A stretch of 38,998 nt of DNA, from the IMG/VR virus record IMGVR_UViG_3300027857_000010, positions 1 through 38,998 of that record, one strand, 5' to 3'. Origin of the DNA: a virus. The number at the start of each line of letters is the position of its first letter. Position 1 is the first letter of the stretch. Below, in pieces: positions 21,349 to 31,022 of this stretch. The notes beneath the pieces were generated by a model. That model did no database searches and was not told the origin of the DNA. It worked only from the letters and a program-made list of their open reading frames with translations. A program made the translations under genes and the position numbers.

Positions 21349-21593
21349 GCGGATACCGAGGCGACCTTTTGCCTGGCCTTCGCGAGGATTCGATAGCCCC
21401 GGTACAGCACCGATTCCGGGTAGCTGCCATCCGCCGCGCAGGGCCGTCCCAATGCCTGATGCAGCGCCTTCGCGTTCAGGTTGGTTTTGATATCGCTCAC
21501 GTCCTCCGGTCGATTGAGCTTGCGCCAATCGATCATGCGGTCGATGAGTTCCTGCTCGGGGTTGATCCGATCACCGTTTGCCTCGAGTTTCAT
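21345..21593 (-). CDS. Small replication-module protein (82 aa)
   Basis: Starts MKLEANGDRINPEQELIDRM at the ATG at 21593, which overlaps the initiator stop as ATGA. The sequence IDWRKLNRPEDVSDIKTNLNAKALHQALGRP is helical and resembles small proteins downstream of phage replication initiators. Next comes AADGSYPESVLYRGYRILAKARQ. I do not recognise a domain. As lambda places P and ren after O, this could be a helicase-loading or accessory factor, though it is much shorter than lambda P. No ATPase motifs are present. Confidence 0.75.
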   Translation of the reverse strand: MKLEANGDRINPEQELIDRMIDWRKLNRPEDVSDIKTNLNAKALHQALGRPCAADGSYPESVLYRGYRILAKARQKVASVSA

Positions 21594-22321
21594 GCGGAAT
21601 CTCCAGTTATTTCGTGGTATGCGGTGCAAAACGCCTTACGGACGATGGAATCCTCGACGCCCTGCTGGCGTTGGGCGATGCGCGACCATCCGCCGGCGGC
21701 ATCGATAGCCGCTTGCAACTCGTGCGTTCGGGGTGGTCTCGCGCCGTCCGAGGCGATCAGTTCGTACCATACGGCGATGGCTGGGTCCGGTGGCCGCTCC
21801 CGTCGGTGGTGCTTTCCGTTCCCGTTCTGCCCATTCGTCGCAGACGAAGGAAGCCCCCCTTGGGGGTTTGGGGGATTCAAGCTATCAGCAATCAGAGAAT
21901 CAGCAATCAGAGAATCAGCCCGAGTCGCAATGGCCTCGGTTGTGCTCGCTTCGGGCCTTGGTTGTTCTGACTTGCGTCCTTGGCGCGTCCTTGGCACTGC
22001 CTTAGCGGCAAGCGTGCTTGGAGCCTCATTTTTATGGGGTTTCTGATGCTTTTTGAACTCCAATATTTGGATGATTTTGACGCCGTCCGCTTCGTATCGA
22101 TCGATGAATTGGTGACGAGCCAACCAGTCGAGCGAAGCCTCGATGTCGACTGAGAAACGGTACGGCAAAACTTCGGCGCGAATTTTGGCAGGACGATCCT
22201 CCAACCGCCCCTCTCTGTCAGCCATACACCAGAGTCCTTCAAACAAAATCGTAAGTACCGGATCGGCCTCTCCTAGCACCTCGTTTTTGAACAATCCCGG
22301 CTTGATGTTGCGGGCGCGCAT
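21590..22321 (-). CDS. Phage replication initiator (O-like)
   Basis: A 243-residue protein starting MRARNIKPGLFKNEVLGEAD. The N-terminal 95 residues (KNEVLGEADPVLTILFEGLWCMADREGRLEDRPAKIRAEVLPYR, then a winged-helix region SLDWLARHQFIDRYEADGVKIIQI) are the standard start of phage O-type or DnaT-like replication proteins. Residues about 100-165 are a low-complexity linker with the repeat DSLIADSLIADSL. The C-terminal 80 residues contain WYELIASDGARPPRTHELQAAIDAAGGW, probably a domain that engages the host helicase system. No helicase or polymerase gene is present, so it likely recruits host DnaB. The coding repeats are iteron-like. Confidence 0.88.
   Translation of the reverse strand: MRARNIKPGLFKNEVLGEADPVLTILFEGLWCMADREGRLEDRPAKIRAEVLPYRFSVDIEASLDWLARHQFIDRYEADGVKIIQILEFKKHQKPHKNEAPSTLAAKAVPRTRQGRKSEQPRPEASTTEAIATRADSLIADSLIADSLNPPNPQGGLPSSATNGQNGNGKHHRRERPPDPAIAVWYELIASDGARPPRTHELQAAIDAAGGWSRIAQRQQGVEDSIVRKAFCTAYHEITGDSA
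21884..21919. repeat. Iteron-like 15-bp direct repeats inside the initiator gene
   Basis: AGCAATCAGAGAATC occurs twice back to back (21887-21901 and 21902-21916), flanked by partial copies (ATC before, AGC after). On the coding strand it encodes DSLIA twice. A C-run/G-run inverted repeat follows 20-30 bases away (21854-21866). Lambda's origin is likewise a set of iterons inside gene O, so this is a candidate origin. Confidence 0.55.
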
Positions 22322-23864: not shown

Positions 23865-24071
23865 CTAAGTGCAGGTTTCGGAGGCGCGCGGCTGATAGTC
23901 CGAAGGATTTACCTTCAGCTTGCCGCGGGTGAGCGACTCGATTTTGTAAGCGCTCCCCTCCGGAACAATGCCCTCCTTTGCCCACTTCGAAACCGCAGCG
24001 CGCGAAATCCCCAGTATTCGAGCTACCTCGGCCGGAGATCCGTAATAGGTGATGACGTCGGTCGTTTGCAT
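23865..24071 (-). CDS. cro: Cro-like repressor (P22 type)
   Basis: A 68-residue protein starting MQTTDVITYYGSPAEVARIL. The pattern D VI.YYG....VA..LGIS.AAVSKW.....P...AY+.E..T.G.L closely follows P22 Cro, with the helix-turn-helix at about residues 12-31. I chose the ATG at 24071 to match family length; in-frame ATGs lie at 24080 and 24107 (upstream residues MIVNCSMVNMPS). No ribosome site precedes it, and the predicted promoter places the transcript start almost on the ATG, so the message may be leaderless. It would bind the inverted repeat at 24090-24120 and repress one or both early promoters. No partner CI gene is adjacent. Confidence 0.85.
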   Translation of the reverse strand: MQTTDVITYYGSPAEVARILGISRAAVSKWAKEGIVPEGSAYKIESLTRGKLKVNPSDYQPRASETCT

Positions 24072-24080
24072 GGACGGCAT

Positions 24081-24131
24081 GTTAACCATACTACAGTTGA
24101 CAATCAAATGTAACTGTAGTTAACTCGCTCC
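24081..24131. promoter_or_regulatory. Divergent early promoters with operator (switch region)
   Basis: ACTACAGTT (24090-24098) and AACTGTAGT (24112-24120) form a perfect 9-bp inverted repeat around a 13-base spacer. A consensus -35 TTGACA (24097-24102) points right, with TTAACT 17 bp on (24120-24125) as -10. Leftward, TTGATT (24107-24102) and TAACAT (24084-24079) stand 17 bp apart. Both promoter pairs overlap the arms, so a protein bound there would block both. Binding by the Cro-like protein is inferred. Confidence 0.75.
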
Positions 24132-24464: not shown

Positions 24465-24823
24465 GCCCCGACGGCCACGAGCAGCGCATCGCCGAGAGCG
24501 AAGAGCGCGCGCGCGAGGACATGGACCGCCTGGACTTGGCGGAGCTTTTGGCCGACGAGAGCCGGGACGTGCCGCCGCTCTCCGAGGCCGAACTCACCGG
24601 CTCCTCAGCCGTGCTCACGCCGACCGAGCGCGGCTTGGTCTCCTCCGCCGTGGTCCTGCAGATGCAGCGCGATGCCTTGCGCGATGTGCTCATGGATTTA
24701 GCCTTCGGCGCCGAGATGATGCTCGAGCCCGTGATGGGCGCCACGGGCACCTTCAAGCGCTACGCCGAGGAAGTGCTGCGGGTGGCGCGGGCGGGTTTGA
24801 AGCAGGCGAAGGTGGGCACATGA
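24461..24823 (+). CDS. Early acidic helical protein (120 aa)
   Basis: Starts MSPDGHEQRIAESEERARED with GAGGAGG upstream and an ATGA overlap with the previous gene. The N-terminal 45 residues are acidic and helical (DMDRLDLAELLADESRDVPPLSEAEL). The rest holds VVLQMQRDALRDVLMDLAFGAEMMLEPVMG and a C-terminal helix (FKRYAEEVLRVARAGLKQAK). No domain is recognised. It is a likely early accessory protein. The acidic N-terminus could mimic nucleic acid, which is speculation. Confidence 0.78.
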   Translation: MSPDGHEQRIAESEERAREDMDRLDLAELLADESRDVPPLSEAELTGSSAVLTPTERGLVSSAVVLQMQRDALRDVLMDLAFGAEMMLEPVMGATGTFKRYAEEVLRVARAGLKQAKVGT

Positions 24824-25512
24824 GCCCCCTCCTCGCCGAACGCTTCCGGCAAATCGAAGCGCTGTCCTTGAAGAGCGGCAATCACGAGGATTTCGAGCAC
24901 GGCATGTGCGTGATGGAGGCTGTCGCCTACATCGCGGGCGAACCCTGGTCCGATCATCCGCAGTGCGCGTGCCCCGTGCTCACGGCCTTCCTGATGGCGT
25001 GGAACGATGGGCTGCCTTCCGATGCGGAGCGCGATCGCTTGCTCAAACCGCTCATCGAACAGATCGTCGACACGCGCTCAACCAAAGCGGTCGAGGAGCG
25101 CCGCTCGTACATGGCCTTGGATTGGCTGATTCGCGTTCACACGCCGAAGTGGCTCGATCTCGTGCCTACGCTGGCACCACATGCCAAGGCGCTGCGCGAT
25201 CTCGAAGAGATTGTCGATCTTGCGGGAGCGAGCGCCGCTGGCGCGAGCGTTCGCGCAGCGCGGGACGCAGCGCGGGACGCAGCGCGGGCCGCAGCGTGGG
25301 CCGCAGCGTGGGACGCAGCGGGGGACGCAGCGTGGGCCGCAGCGGGGGACGCAGCGGGGGACGCAGCGCGGGCCGCAGCGTGGGACGCAGCGGGGGACGC
25401 AGCGCGGGACGCAGCGTGGGCCGCAGCGCGGGAATTTCTTAAGCCGACGACCGAATGGCTCCAGGCGAGCGCGCTCGATCTCGTGGCTCGCATGATCCGG
25501 GTGCAGCCATGA
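24820..25512 (+). CDS. Alanine-rich repeat protein with conserved N-terminal domain (230 aa)
   Basis: Begins MSPLLAERFRQIEALSLKSG at an ATG overlapping the previous stop as ATGA. Residues about 15-110 contain HEDFEHGMCVMEAVAYIAGE and SDHPQCACPVLTAFLMAWNDGL, a domain I have seen in actinobacterial and phage proteins of unknown role. Residues about 146-205 are fifteen copies of the four-residue unit A-A-x-z (x = R, W or G; z = D or A, the last unit ending in E), encoded by 12-bp tandem repeats at 25255-25434. The C-terminal 25 residues return to normal composition (FLKPTTEWLQASALDLVARM). The repeat would form a long helix with alternating Arg, Trp and Asp faces. The function is unknown; copy number is probably variable. 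Confidence 0.85.
   Translation: MSPLLAERFRQIEALSLKSGNHEDFEHGMCVMEAVAYIAGEPWSDHPQCACPVLTAFLMAWNDGLPSDAERDRLLKPLIEQIVDTRSTKAVEERRSYMALDWLIRVHTPKWLDLVPTLAPHAKALRDLEEIVDLAGASAAGASVRAARDAARDAARAAAWAAAWDAAGDAAWAAAGDAAGDAARAAAWDAAGDAARDAAWAAAREFLKPTTEWLQASALDLVARMIRVQP
25255..25434 (+). repeat. 15 tandem 12-bp units, variable at essentially two positions
   Basis: Each unit is GCAGCG followed by NGG and GMC, so only base 7 (C, T or G) and base 11 (A or C) vary among the first fourteen units; the fifteenth ends GAA. The order of codons at the third place is R R R W W G W G G R W G R W R. The repeat stays in frame, so gain or loss of units changes protein length by four residues without a frameshift. 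Confidence 0.97.
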
Positions 25513-25676: not shown

Positions 25677-25876
25677 TCATCGACCTCGAGACCTACATCG
25701 TCTGCCGCGTCGCCTTGGCCGCCGCCAAGCTCGCGAACCCAGGCGAGGCGAAGTACGCGAAAGCCTTCGACGCGCTGCGCCAGGCGCTCGTCGATGAGAA
25801 CGAGCGCGAGTTGAACTCAACCGAGAACATCATCACGGCGAGTCGGCGCCCGGCGCTGGTAAGGAGTCAAGCATGA
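25673..25876 (+). CDS. Small helical early protein (67 aa)
   Basis: Starts MIIDLETYIVCRVALAAAKL at an ATG overlapping the stop before it (ATGA). The sequence is helical with ANPGEAKYAKAFDALRQALVDENERE and a basic end. The AAGGAG used by the next gene lies inside its last codons. No recognised family. It may be an accessory of the RecE-like nuclease that follows, with which it overlaps by 4 bp. Confidence 0.75.
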   Translation: MIIDLETYIVCRVALAAAKLANPGEAKYAKAFDALRQALVDENERELNSTENIITASRRPALVRSQA

Positions 25877-26724
25877 ATCTGATTCAATCCCGTGTCCCGC
25901 GCGAGGAGTACGACGCGATTCCCGGCGTCAACGTCACGCGTTTGAAAGAACTGCGCCGCTCGCCGCTCCATTACCAGGCCGCCGCGACTCACCCGAAAAG
26001 CACCGACGCGCTCACCCTTGGCATCGCGACCCACACCGCCGTCTTGGAGCCCGAGCGCTTCGGCCATGATTTTGCGGTGTGGAATAAGCGCCTTGCCAAC
26101 GGCCGCGCCGCGCCCAGGAATGGCGGTGCCTGGGACGCCTTCAAGGAACTGCACTGCGAGCGGACCATTCTCACGGGCGATGAAGCCGACCTCGCGATGG
26201 CGATTGCCAAAGCGGTGCGCTTCGATGAGACCGCGAACAAGTACCTCGCGGTCGGCGATCCCGAAGTGACGATGCAATGGGAGATCGAGGGACGCCCCTG
26301 CCGCGGGCGCGTCGATTGGCTGACCCAAGTCGAGGGCGAGCAATACCTCGTGGGCTTGAAGACCACCCGCGATTGCCGTCACTTCGCCTTCGGCAGCCAG
26401 GCCGCAAAGCTCGACTACGCCATTCAGTGGGCGTGGTACTGCGATGGCTATGAGGCGATCACCGGCAAAGTCCCGCACATGATTGAGATCGTGGTCGAGA
26501 ACACCGCCCCCTTCGCGGTCGCCACCTACCGCATCGAGAACGACATTCTGCTGCAGGGGCGGGACAACTACCGCGAACTCTTGAAGATCCTGCGCGACTG
26601 CGAGGCCGCCGGCGAGTGGCCCGGGCCGGTGCAGGGCGAACAGATCCTGACCCTCCCCTCTTGGTATTACCCCAGCAATGAGGCCGAGGATCTCGCCGAT
26701 CTCGGCTTGGAGCCAATCACATGA
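25873..26724 (+). CDS. RecE-like PD-(D/E)XK exonuclease
   Basis: A 283-residue protein with a strong AAGGAG site. The pattern matches the RecE/exodeoxyribonuclease VIII-like family: PGVNVTRLKELRRSPLHYQA, LTLGIATHTAVLEPERF (His54), VGDPEVTMQWEIEGRPCRGRVDWL with D148, LVGLKTT with K163, and DYAIQWAWYCDGYE with Q185 and Y189. These form the standard active site of a processive 5'-to-3' dsDNA exonuclease used in phage recombination. The enzyme feeds a single-strand annealing protein, for which the next gene is the candidate partner. It is placed as lambda exo is in the pL operon. Confidence 0.9.
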   Translation: MNLIQSRVPREEYDAIPGVNVTRLKELRRSPLHYQAAATHPKSTDALTLGIATHTAVLEPERFGHDFAVWNKRLANGRAAPRNGGAWDAFKELHCERTILTGDEADLAMAIAKAVRFDETANKYLAVGDPEVTMQWEIEGRPCRGRVDWLTQVEGEQYLVGLKTTRDCRHFAFGSQAAKLDYAIQWAWYCDGYEAITGKVPHMIEIVVENTAPFAVATYRIENDILLQGRDNYRELLKILRDCEAAGEWPGPVQGEQILTLPSWYYPSNEAEDLADLGLEPIT

Positions 26725-30473: not shown

Positions 30474-31022
30474 ATGAAGTGCTACGTATATTTCGTGATG
30501 GCCGCGACCGAGCCACCCCTCTACAAGATAGGCATTGCGAAGAATCTGCGCCGCCGTCTTCGCTGCCTTCAGACTTCATGCCCTTTCGACCTCGCCATAT
30601 TTTACAAACGGCGTCGCCTCAGTCGCCAATTGGCCAGGGACGAAGAAAGACACTTACATGCTCTTTTTCGAGAGAAGCGTTGCCGCGGAGAGTGGTTTCA
30701 GCTCGGACACGCCGATCTGCAGAGGGTGATGCGTTCACCGGGAGACCAGCATGAGCAAGCGTGGAAGACCGTCAAAGCTATCCCCCGCCGACAAGCACGA
30801 GGTGCGGAGATATCGCGAAGCCGGCGTCTCAATCGCGCGCTTAGCATCGATGTGGCAAGTATCGACGACGCGGATCTACGAGATCTTGGCCGAGCAGCGA
30901 GCAATGCTCGGACCCGAGCAATTACCGAAAGACAAAAGACATCTTGTCCGCCGGCATTTGTTCACGTCCGAAAAAGACAGCCCTACAGTTGTCAGCAATT
31001 AGAATTACCGTACCTCAACTAA
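30474..31022 (+). CDS. GIY-YIG nuclease (T5orf172/MUG113 type) with long out-of-place C-terminus
   Basis: The first 90 residues carry a GIY-YIG domain: YVYFV (4-8) for GIY, YKIGIA (17-22) for YIG, RRRLRCLQTSCPF with catalytic-type Arg, DEERHLH with Glu near 57-58, then GEWF (72-75). This fits the T5orf172/MUG113 branch. The frame stays open for another 90 residues across the whole of the next gene, and this part is Arg-rich and looks like its shadow. No ribosome site is clear; ATG at 30474 is used. A TATAAA box (30461-30466) lies just upstream. The C-terminal extension may be an accident of a missing stop, a frameshift, or genuine overlap. A mobile endonuclease is likely. Confidence 0.72.
   Translation: MKCYVYFVMAATEPPLYKIGIAKNLRRRLRCLQTSCPFDLAIFYKRRRLSRQLARDEERHLHALFREKRCRGEWFQLGHADLQRVMRSPGDQHEQAWKTVKAIPRRQARGAEISRSRRLNRALSIDVASIDDADLRDLGRAASNARTRAITERQKTSCPPAFVHVRKRQPYSCQQLELPYLN
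30751..31002 (+). CDS. HTH DNA-binding protein (83 aa)
   Basis: Starts MSKRGRPSKLSPADKHEVRR with GGGAG 6 nt upstream. KRGRPSK is AT-hook-like, followed by a homeodomain-like helix-turn-helix (LSPADKHEVRRYREAGVSIARLASMWQVSTTRIYEIL) as in resolvase-type HTH domains. A basic tail follows (KDKRHLVRRHLF). The gene is wholly contained, in another frame, in the open frame of the GIY-YIG gene. A small regulator is likely; candidate sites are the repeats in 31003-31114. Confidence 0.82.
   Translation: MSKRGRPSKLSPADKHEVRRYREAGVSIARLASMWQVSTTRIYEILAEQRAMLGPEQLPKDKRHLVRRHLFTSEKDSPTVVSN

Follow-up and report, generated by a model that had tools for sequence, protein, structure and literature searches.

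How can a run of tandem repeats stay fixed at most of its bases while its units differ at essentially two of them? This question is raised by a gene in an IMG/VR virus record of 38,998 bp, which was analysed over its whole length and is called the window here. The gene carries an array of 12-bp units (Table 1) that encode two alanines followed by two residues, here called x and y. We confirmed base by base the preliminary description of this array as 15 in-frame GCAGCG-NGG-GMC units, the last of which ends in GAA. Positions 1-6 and 8-10 of the unit are invariant in all 15; position 7 is C in six units, T in five and G in four, position 11 is A in ten and C in five, and position 12 is C in 14, its sole change being the A of the terminal GAA (Glu). 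Synonymous changes at positions 3, 6, 9 and 12 were absent from the 15 units, which run, by x and y, RD RD RA WA WD GD WA GD GD RA WD GD RD WA RE. In strength the array far exceeds every other tandem repeat of the window (score 262; runner-up 72), and it does not lie at a contig end of the record. Its collapse during assembly is of little worry, because the longest exact repeat inside it, 35 bp, can be resolved by a k-mer assembler. The codons of the array depart from those preferred in the genome: among the 13 other genes of the window, three of them, GGG, CGG and GAC, make up 17%, 23% and 36% of the codons for their own amino acids. AGG makes up 3% of the Arg codons in the genes of the window, and more than half of the arrays elsewhere use AGG. 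A second in-frame tandem repeat of the window (21884-21919; 15 bp x 2.4, with ADSLI repeated) lies within a replication-initiation-like gene on the minus strand (21590-22321).

Table 1. Features of the array gene and its neighbours in the window
Feature	Position	Strand	Basis or remark
P22 Cro / YdaS-like regulator, divergent from the array operon	23865..24107	-	PF14549, 1.3e-18; PHROG profiles
CDS of the array protein, 230 aa, ATG to TGA	24820..25512	+	Homologous ORF in about 100 loci
Conserved N-terminal domain (N-domain), ~133 aa	24820..25218	+	Without Pfam match; phrog_13065 / phrog_3416 (function not annotated)
Start of the first long helix (residues 134-145), a short linker ahead of the array	25219..25254	+	AlphaFold2 model
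Array, 15 x 12 bp, AA[R/W/G][D/A], last unit AARE	25255..25434	+	Contiguous, in frame in the CDS
Predicted hairpin tip (residues 177-180, adjacent AAGD-AAGD units)	25348..25359	+	AlphaFold2 secondary structure and dip in pLDDT
Conserved C-terminal helix, FLKPTTEWLQASALDLVARMI...	25435..25509	+	Recurs in relatives as LxPTxxxLQxSAxxLxxRMI; AlphaFold2
Exonuclease VIII / DUF3799-like gene, downstream; candidate phage recombination function	25873..26724	+	PF12684, 1.1e-29; phrog_412, 6.1e-59

Relatives of the window protein were collected by its N-domain in two overlapping scans of viral sequences, which gave 40 and 80 loci (the latter kept from 113 relatives found), and ten bacterial contigs were matched as well. 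In nearly all readable relatives, with N-domains 39-92% identical, a tetrad array lies between the N-domain and the conserved C-terminal helix, so that the suggestion of a tail that recurs throughout the family was borne out by the N-domain search and the comparison of tails. Complete clean arrays have 8-31 units with a median of 17.5, in a set that leaves out arrays of fewer than 8 units; in the exceptional relatives the array is short, degenerate or absent (e.g., L059, L084, L105 and L078). In L078 (2501-3052) the N-domain is without an array and the frame continues into hydrophobic sequence, perhaps because the end of the gene is broken or was swapped. In the translations of two genome contigs, from Arthrobacter (L127) and Kribbella (L129), X occurs inside the array, maybe through assembly gaps or masking in the collection. 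Residues C30, E33, N62, D63, R71, R95, D101, W102 and R105 of the N-domain are invariant in the full-length alignment. The whole window protein matches phrog_3416 at 3.6e-8, partly on the repeats, and its N-domain matches phrog_13065 at 1.8e-3, a profile also matched by 13 of 30 relatives; DUF6197 (PF19698) was weakly matched by one of the 30 N-domains (E=0.092). The window protein matched no Pfam family at E<=0.1, including the Imm5 and Imm5-like families PF14423 and PF21805, and sequence searches of Pfam, NCBIfam, PADLOC and the PDB yielded no function for the array protein.

A few relatives have other sets of x residues in which the third base is C, as in L024 (Tyr/Asp/Arg), which argues that what is conserved is the protein tetrad rather than the DNA word NGG. 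Within this tetrad frame, L024, L098, L111 and L123 have other residue sets (Tyr/Asp/Arg; x-Ser units; Asp/Val), showing at the level of sequence that the tetrad slot is kept while its alphabet can change. In the nearest relative of the window, L001 (4001-4882), the array contains a composite cassette in which DAST is inserted several times. Longer odd cassettes are thus evidently copied too.

The contrast between silent and replacement positions was measured in a main set of 66 clean arrays with 1,102 units, the loci of which were chosen by the N-domain and not by the repeat, after removal of about a dozen loci that were duplicates or strongly degenerate. Within an array, the mean heterozygosity at silent positions 3, 6 and 12 is 0.005, 0.009 and 0.040, and the inner units of 60 of the 66 arrays are without any variation at these positions, whereas between array consensuses the corresponding values are 0.62, 0.73 and 0.30. 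At replacement positions 7 and 11, the heterozygosity within arrays is 0.62 and 0.485, near the maximum for three and two types, respectively, and the contrast of position 7 with positions 3 and 6 is roughly 70-fold or larger. When the left-out loci are included (84 arrays), the contrast is smaller and still large, with 0.07-0.09 at silent positions, 0.59 at x and 0.45 at y. Each phage thus has its own silent spelling (GCAGCG..., GCTGCC..., GCCGCT..., ending in GMC or GMT) and the same residue mix. Arg, Trp and Gly each make up close to one third of the x residues, with a variance at most about 2.2 times binomial; Trp occurs in about a third of the units, and the three residues are near-even in nearly all arrays. 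An array spells Arg either AGG or CGG, both codons being found together in only 2 of 63 arrays and 2 of 365 units. Raw counts on the N-domain tree give at least 17 changes in the choice of Arg codon and at least 42 in the silent spelling.

Traces of the way in which units spread are seen in arrays with rare silent variation. In L125, a contig of Leucobacter soli, all ten RA or RD units have T at silent position 6 and all 17 W and G units have C, as does the last unit, RT; in L036, position 12 is C in 9 of 9 RV units and T in all others. As far as sequence can tell, such linked markers show copying of whole cassettes. The association between x and y is strong within the unit (z=11.6), weak 8 bp away (z=3.2) and none further, and repeats of four-unit blocks exceed those in shuffled arrays 3.3-fold (62 versus 18.7). 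A convincing lag autocorrelation of unit order was not found. These three observations are explained if unit types are copied with frequent breakpoints, and local slippage as the sole driver is disfavoured because unit order is without the expected correlation between neighbours.

The preliminary description had also proposed that the locus acts as a rapid switch of length and pattern. That part of the proposal that concerns change stood, as unit number and order differ between close relatives; rapidity was not seen at the shortest distances, where pairs at least 99.7% identical keep their arrays as far as these can be compared. Unit order is unrelated at N-domain DNA identities of 95.9% (L007 and L048, from the same metagenome), 90% (L004 and L005) and 87% (the window and L001), and the result that had been set beforehand as speaking against the proposal, one order and number shared by all relatives, was not observed. 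In pairs that are 99.7-100% identical, the arrays agree as far as they can be compared: over the whole array in L002 and L003, over a very short one in L059 and L060, and up to a contig break in L118 and L120 and in L037 and L038. Judging from these sequences, arrays thus turn over before a divergence of a few percent is reached, though not visibly at 0.3%, and fast switching is plausible. E. coli genomes queried for strain-level variation with the DNA of a relative from an Erwinia phage gave no match.

Evidence of another kind comes from the ends of contigs. About 90 IMG/VR contigs carry a member of the family, and 29 of them end inside the array gene, almost always within the array or at its border, where by a rough estimate about one would be expected by chance (contigs cut in arrays include L006, L021, L088, L157/L172 and L199). 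In about half of 33 stopped contigs that were examined, both ends lie within or beside array sequence, so that the array is the cut point of those genomes. By themselves the breaks prove nothing, because the mean GC content of the arrays, 84%, could itself cause them. Two contigs are more informative. In 3300036859_000026 (38,842 bp), the end of the contig repeats its start for 126 bp, mostly N-domain, and the two copies then part at the x base of the second array unit, which encodes Arg in one and Gly in the other. In 3300037219_000061 (43,134 bp), a 127-bp N-domain flank is common to two quite different arrays, which share some rare Leu units. The simplest reading of both contigs is that two array alleles occurred on one genome backbone in the sample, and alleles thus appear to coexist; two strains with the same flank, a duplicated gene or misassembly are possible alternatives. 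Because phage contigs are often cut in these arrays, those that end there and look linear or incomplete may be nearly whole genomes.

Arrays of this kind are found in other proteins as well. A scan for five tandem units returned at least 120 stretches, and the N-domain of the window family accompanies 35 of the 120 listed; some of the remaining listed stretches are fragments of the N-domain gene and many are different proteins. One such scaffold matches the Imm5-like family PF21805 (2.5e-11) and another DUF7666. Isolated phages with array proteins include AF, PPpW-3, Bcep176, P26059A and phiEt88. The array protein of Curvibacter phage P26059A (L253, 1953-2540) is annotated as a tail fiber, yet is related to an array-bearing accessory family. 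As these arrays were picked by the repeat pattern, which fixes positions 8-10 by choice, only free positions were compared: in 66 arrays of other scaffolds, heterozygosity is 0.023 and 0.008 at silent positions 3 and 6 and 0.56 at x, and both Arg codons occur in 1 of 59. In one such family, from Burkholderia-type phages, the arrays differ between members whose flanks share as much as about 95% identity.

The AlphaFold2 model of the window protein (63 sequences, mean pLDDT 93.8) has two long helices that span residues 134-176 and 181-227, and the tip between them falls within the array. An unrelated scaffold is likewise predicted to divide its array between two helices (100-136 and 142-182), here with a tip of low confidence (pLDDT about 51). 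From these models we infer that the array forms a helical hairpin of variable length. When x residues at mirrored places of the predicted hairpin were compared, neither W facing G nor R facing D gave a signal of pairing. Foldseek comparison with the PDB gave a best E of 1.0 and a second look with VIA a best Z of 2.9 over 54 residues; a structural search of a viral library returned two uncharacterised proteins. Gene order is similar in Pseudomonas phage AF, where a different array protein has a repressor-like gene on one side and ERF/exonuclease genes on the other. Since an array gene is situated between regulator and exonuclease-type genes both in the window, where the Cro-like regulator and the exonuclease VIII-like gene flank it, and in AF, position makes it likely that the window protein is made early in infection. 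Exonuclease or ERF genes are seen near only a minority of array loci, the flanks of which are short. Elsewhere in the window (30474-31022) is a protein with a T5orf172/MUG113 domain.

Explanations of the pattern have to account for uniform silent bases and balanced replacement bases at once. Targeted hypermutation, by which positions 7 and 11 of every unit would be mutated at a high rate as in a diversity-generating retroelement, would agree with near-maximal variation confined to two positions and with a unit order close to random. However, under simulated random-base mutation at position 7, 18-20 of 20 arrays came to contain AGG and CGG together, the minority codon making up 34-37% of Arg units, far from the Arg-codon exclusivity observed; the silent markers linked to cassettes speak for copying, and adenines at other positions are untouched. 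We therefore regard hypermutation as very improbable. Neutral evolution of tandem repeats, with slippage and drift under purifying selection and no selection for a mixture, fares equally poorly: the block duplications and the homogenised silent sites are what it would produce, but it predicts that x and y are as uniform as the silent sites, and simulated purifying selection alone indeed gave an x heterozygosity of about 0.05 or less, against the 0.62 observed. Of the schemes simulated, only recombination combined with selection for a balanced mix, in a simple accept/reject model, gave little variation at silent sites, close to the maximum at x and y, and exclusive use of one Arg codon. It is well supported that the pattern rejects decay and random-base hypermutation; what fits it is a small number of unit types that are copied and shuffled, together with balanced-mix selection. 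The preliminary description had noted that changes are not scattered as in a decaying repeat and suggested selection or shuffling of unit types; the heterozygosity contrast, Arg-codon exclusivity, cassette markers and simulations indicate both.

That short-read assembly of GC-rich repeats made the arrays, or the contigs with two alleles, might be suspected from their base composition and from the many contigs that stop in them, but arrays of this kind are present in the complete isolate records of AF and PPpW-3, no internal repeat exceeds 83 bp, and the two contigs branch at the first array bases after the N-domain flank, which leaves an artefact hardly credible. More weight has to be given to a passive spacer, an Ala-rich hairpin in which length and order are irrelevant, R/W/G and D/A serve only solubility or stability, and turnover is a by-product of repetitive DNA. 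The seemingly random and unconserved order, the absence of mirror pairing, the occurrence in unrelated proteins and the wide range of array lengths are all in its favor, and it may be true. Yet the abundance of Trp and the near-even mix of R, W and G in nearly all arrays would be unexpected of a spacer, and Q, L, E and K are rare, though Q and L are one base away from CGG, and E and K one from GGG or AGG.

On balance, we consider it probable that the window gene encodes an accessory phage protein with a variable arm, the units of which are copied and shuffled while selection keeps a balanced mix. Each AA-x-y unit would offer two fixed alanines and two free slots, with Arg, Trp or Gly at x and Asp or Ala at y. 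The long antiparallel hairpin predicted by the model would return the conserved C-terminal helix to the N-domain, and with such a fold whole units could be gained, lost or swapped without breaking it. Unit types would be spread by copying, most likely through homologous or slipped recombination, possibly driven by the recombinase that the phage itself encodes nearby, as position suggests. Copying would make silent bases uniform in each array and let order and length drift fast, and selection, as the statistics and simulations suggest, would hold Ala-Ala fixed and the x and y types near even; the outcome would be an arm of constant composition and changing pattern. The likeliest use of the array is perhaps as an interaction surface that varies in response to change in a host partner or sensor, a tentative proposal to which a length-tolerant spacer is the main alternative and nearly as likely. 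Rather more speculative is a mutator-free diversity generator of phages, in which six types of four-residue cassettes would be recombined into variable recognition arms, portable across many unrelated phage proteins, that track changing host targets or escape host sensors.

The arrays offer a clear natural case of concerted evolution that makes every silent base of an array uniform, although two residues remain balanced in almost all lineages and on several unrelated scaffolds. They suggest that phage accessory proteins contain a recurrent module that lacks annotation, is hypervariable within its locus and also interrupts genome assemblies. As laboratory phages with arrays exist (Pseudomonas phages AF and PPpW-3), a role in the conflict between phage and host is directly testable.

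A search of open-licence PMC papers found no description of such arrays. One array scaffold matches the Imm5-like family PF21805, whereas the window protein matches neither this family nor PF14423. Like simple-sequence contingency loci, the arrays differ in repeat number between relatives; unlike them, they consist of 12-bp units that keep the frame and provide no on/off switch, and pattern varies as well as length. The predicted Ala-rich antiparallel hairpin resembles Alacoil-type coiled coils, but the period of the array is four residues instead of seven, and a convincing PDB match was not found. With the variable proteins of diversity-generating retroelements, the arrays have in common diversity at chosen codon positions within a conserved frame; however, Arg-codon exclusivity and cassette-linked silent sites point to copying and speak against the adenine-directed random substitution of those elements. 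In TALE repeats, tandem units are nearly fixed except for two adjacent variable residues and are spread by recombination. The phage array likewise has two variable residues in otherwise constant tandem units. In contrast to TALE repeats, its unit comprises four residues and not a helix-loop-helix of about 34, its predicted shape is a long hairpin and not a superhelical solenoid, and it belongs to an accessory protein of a phage.
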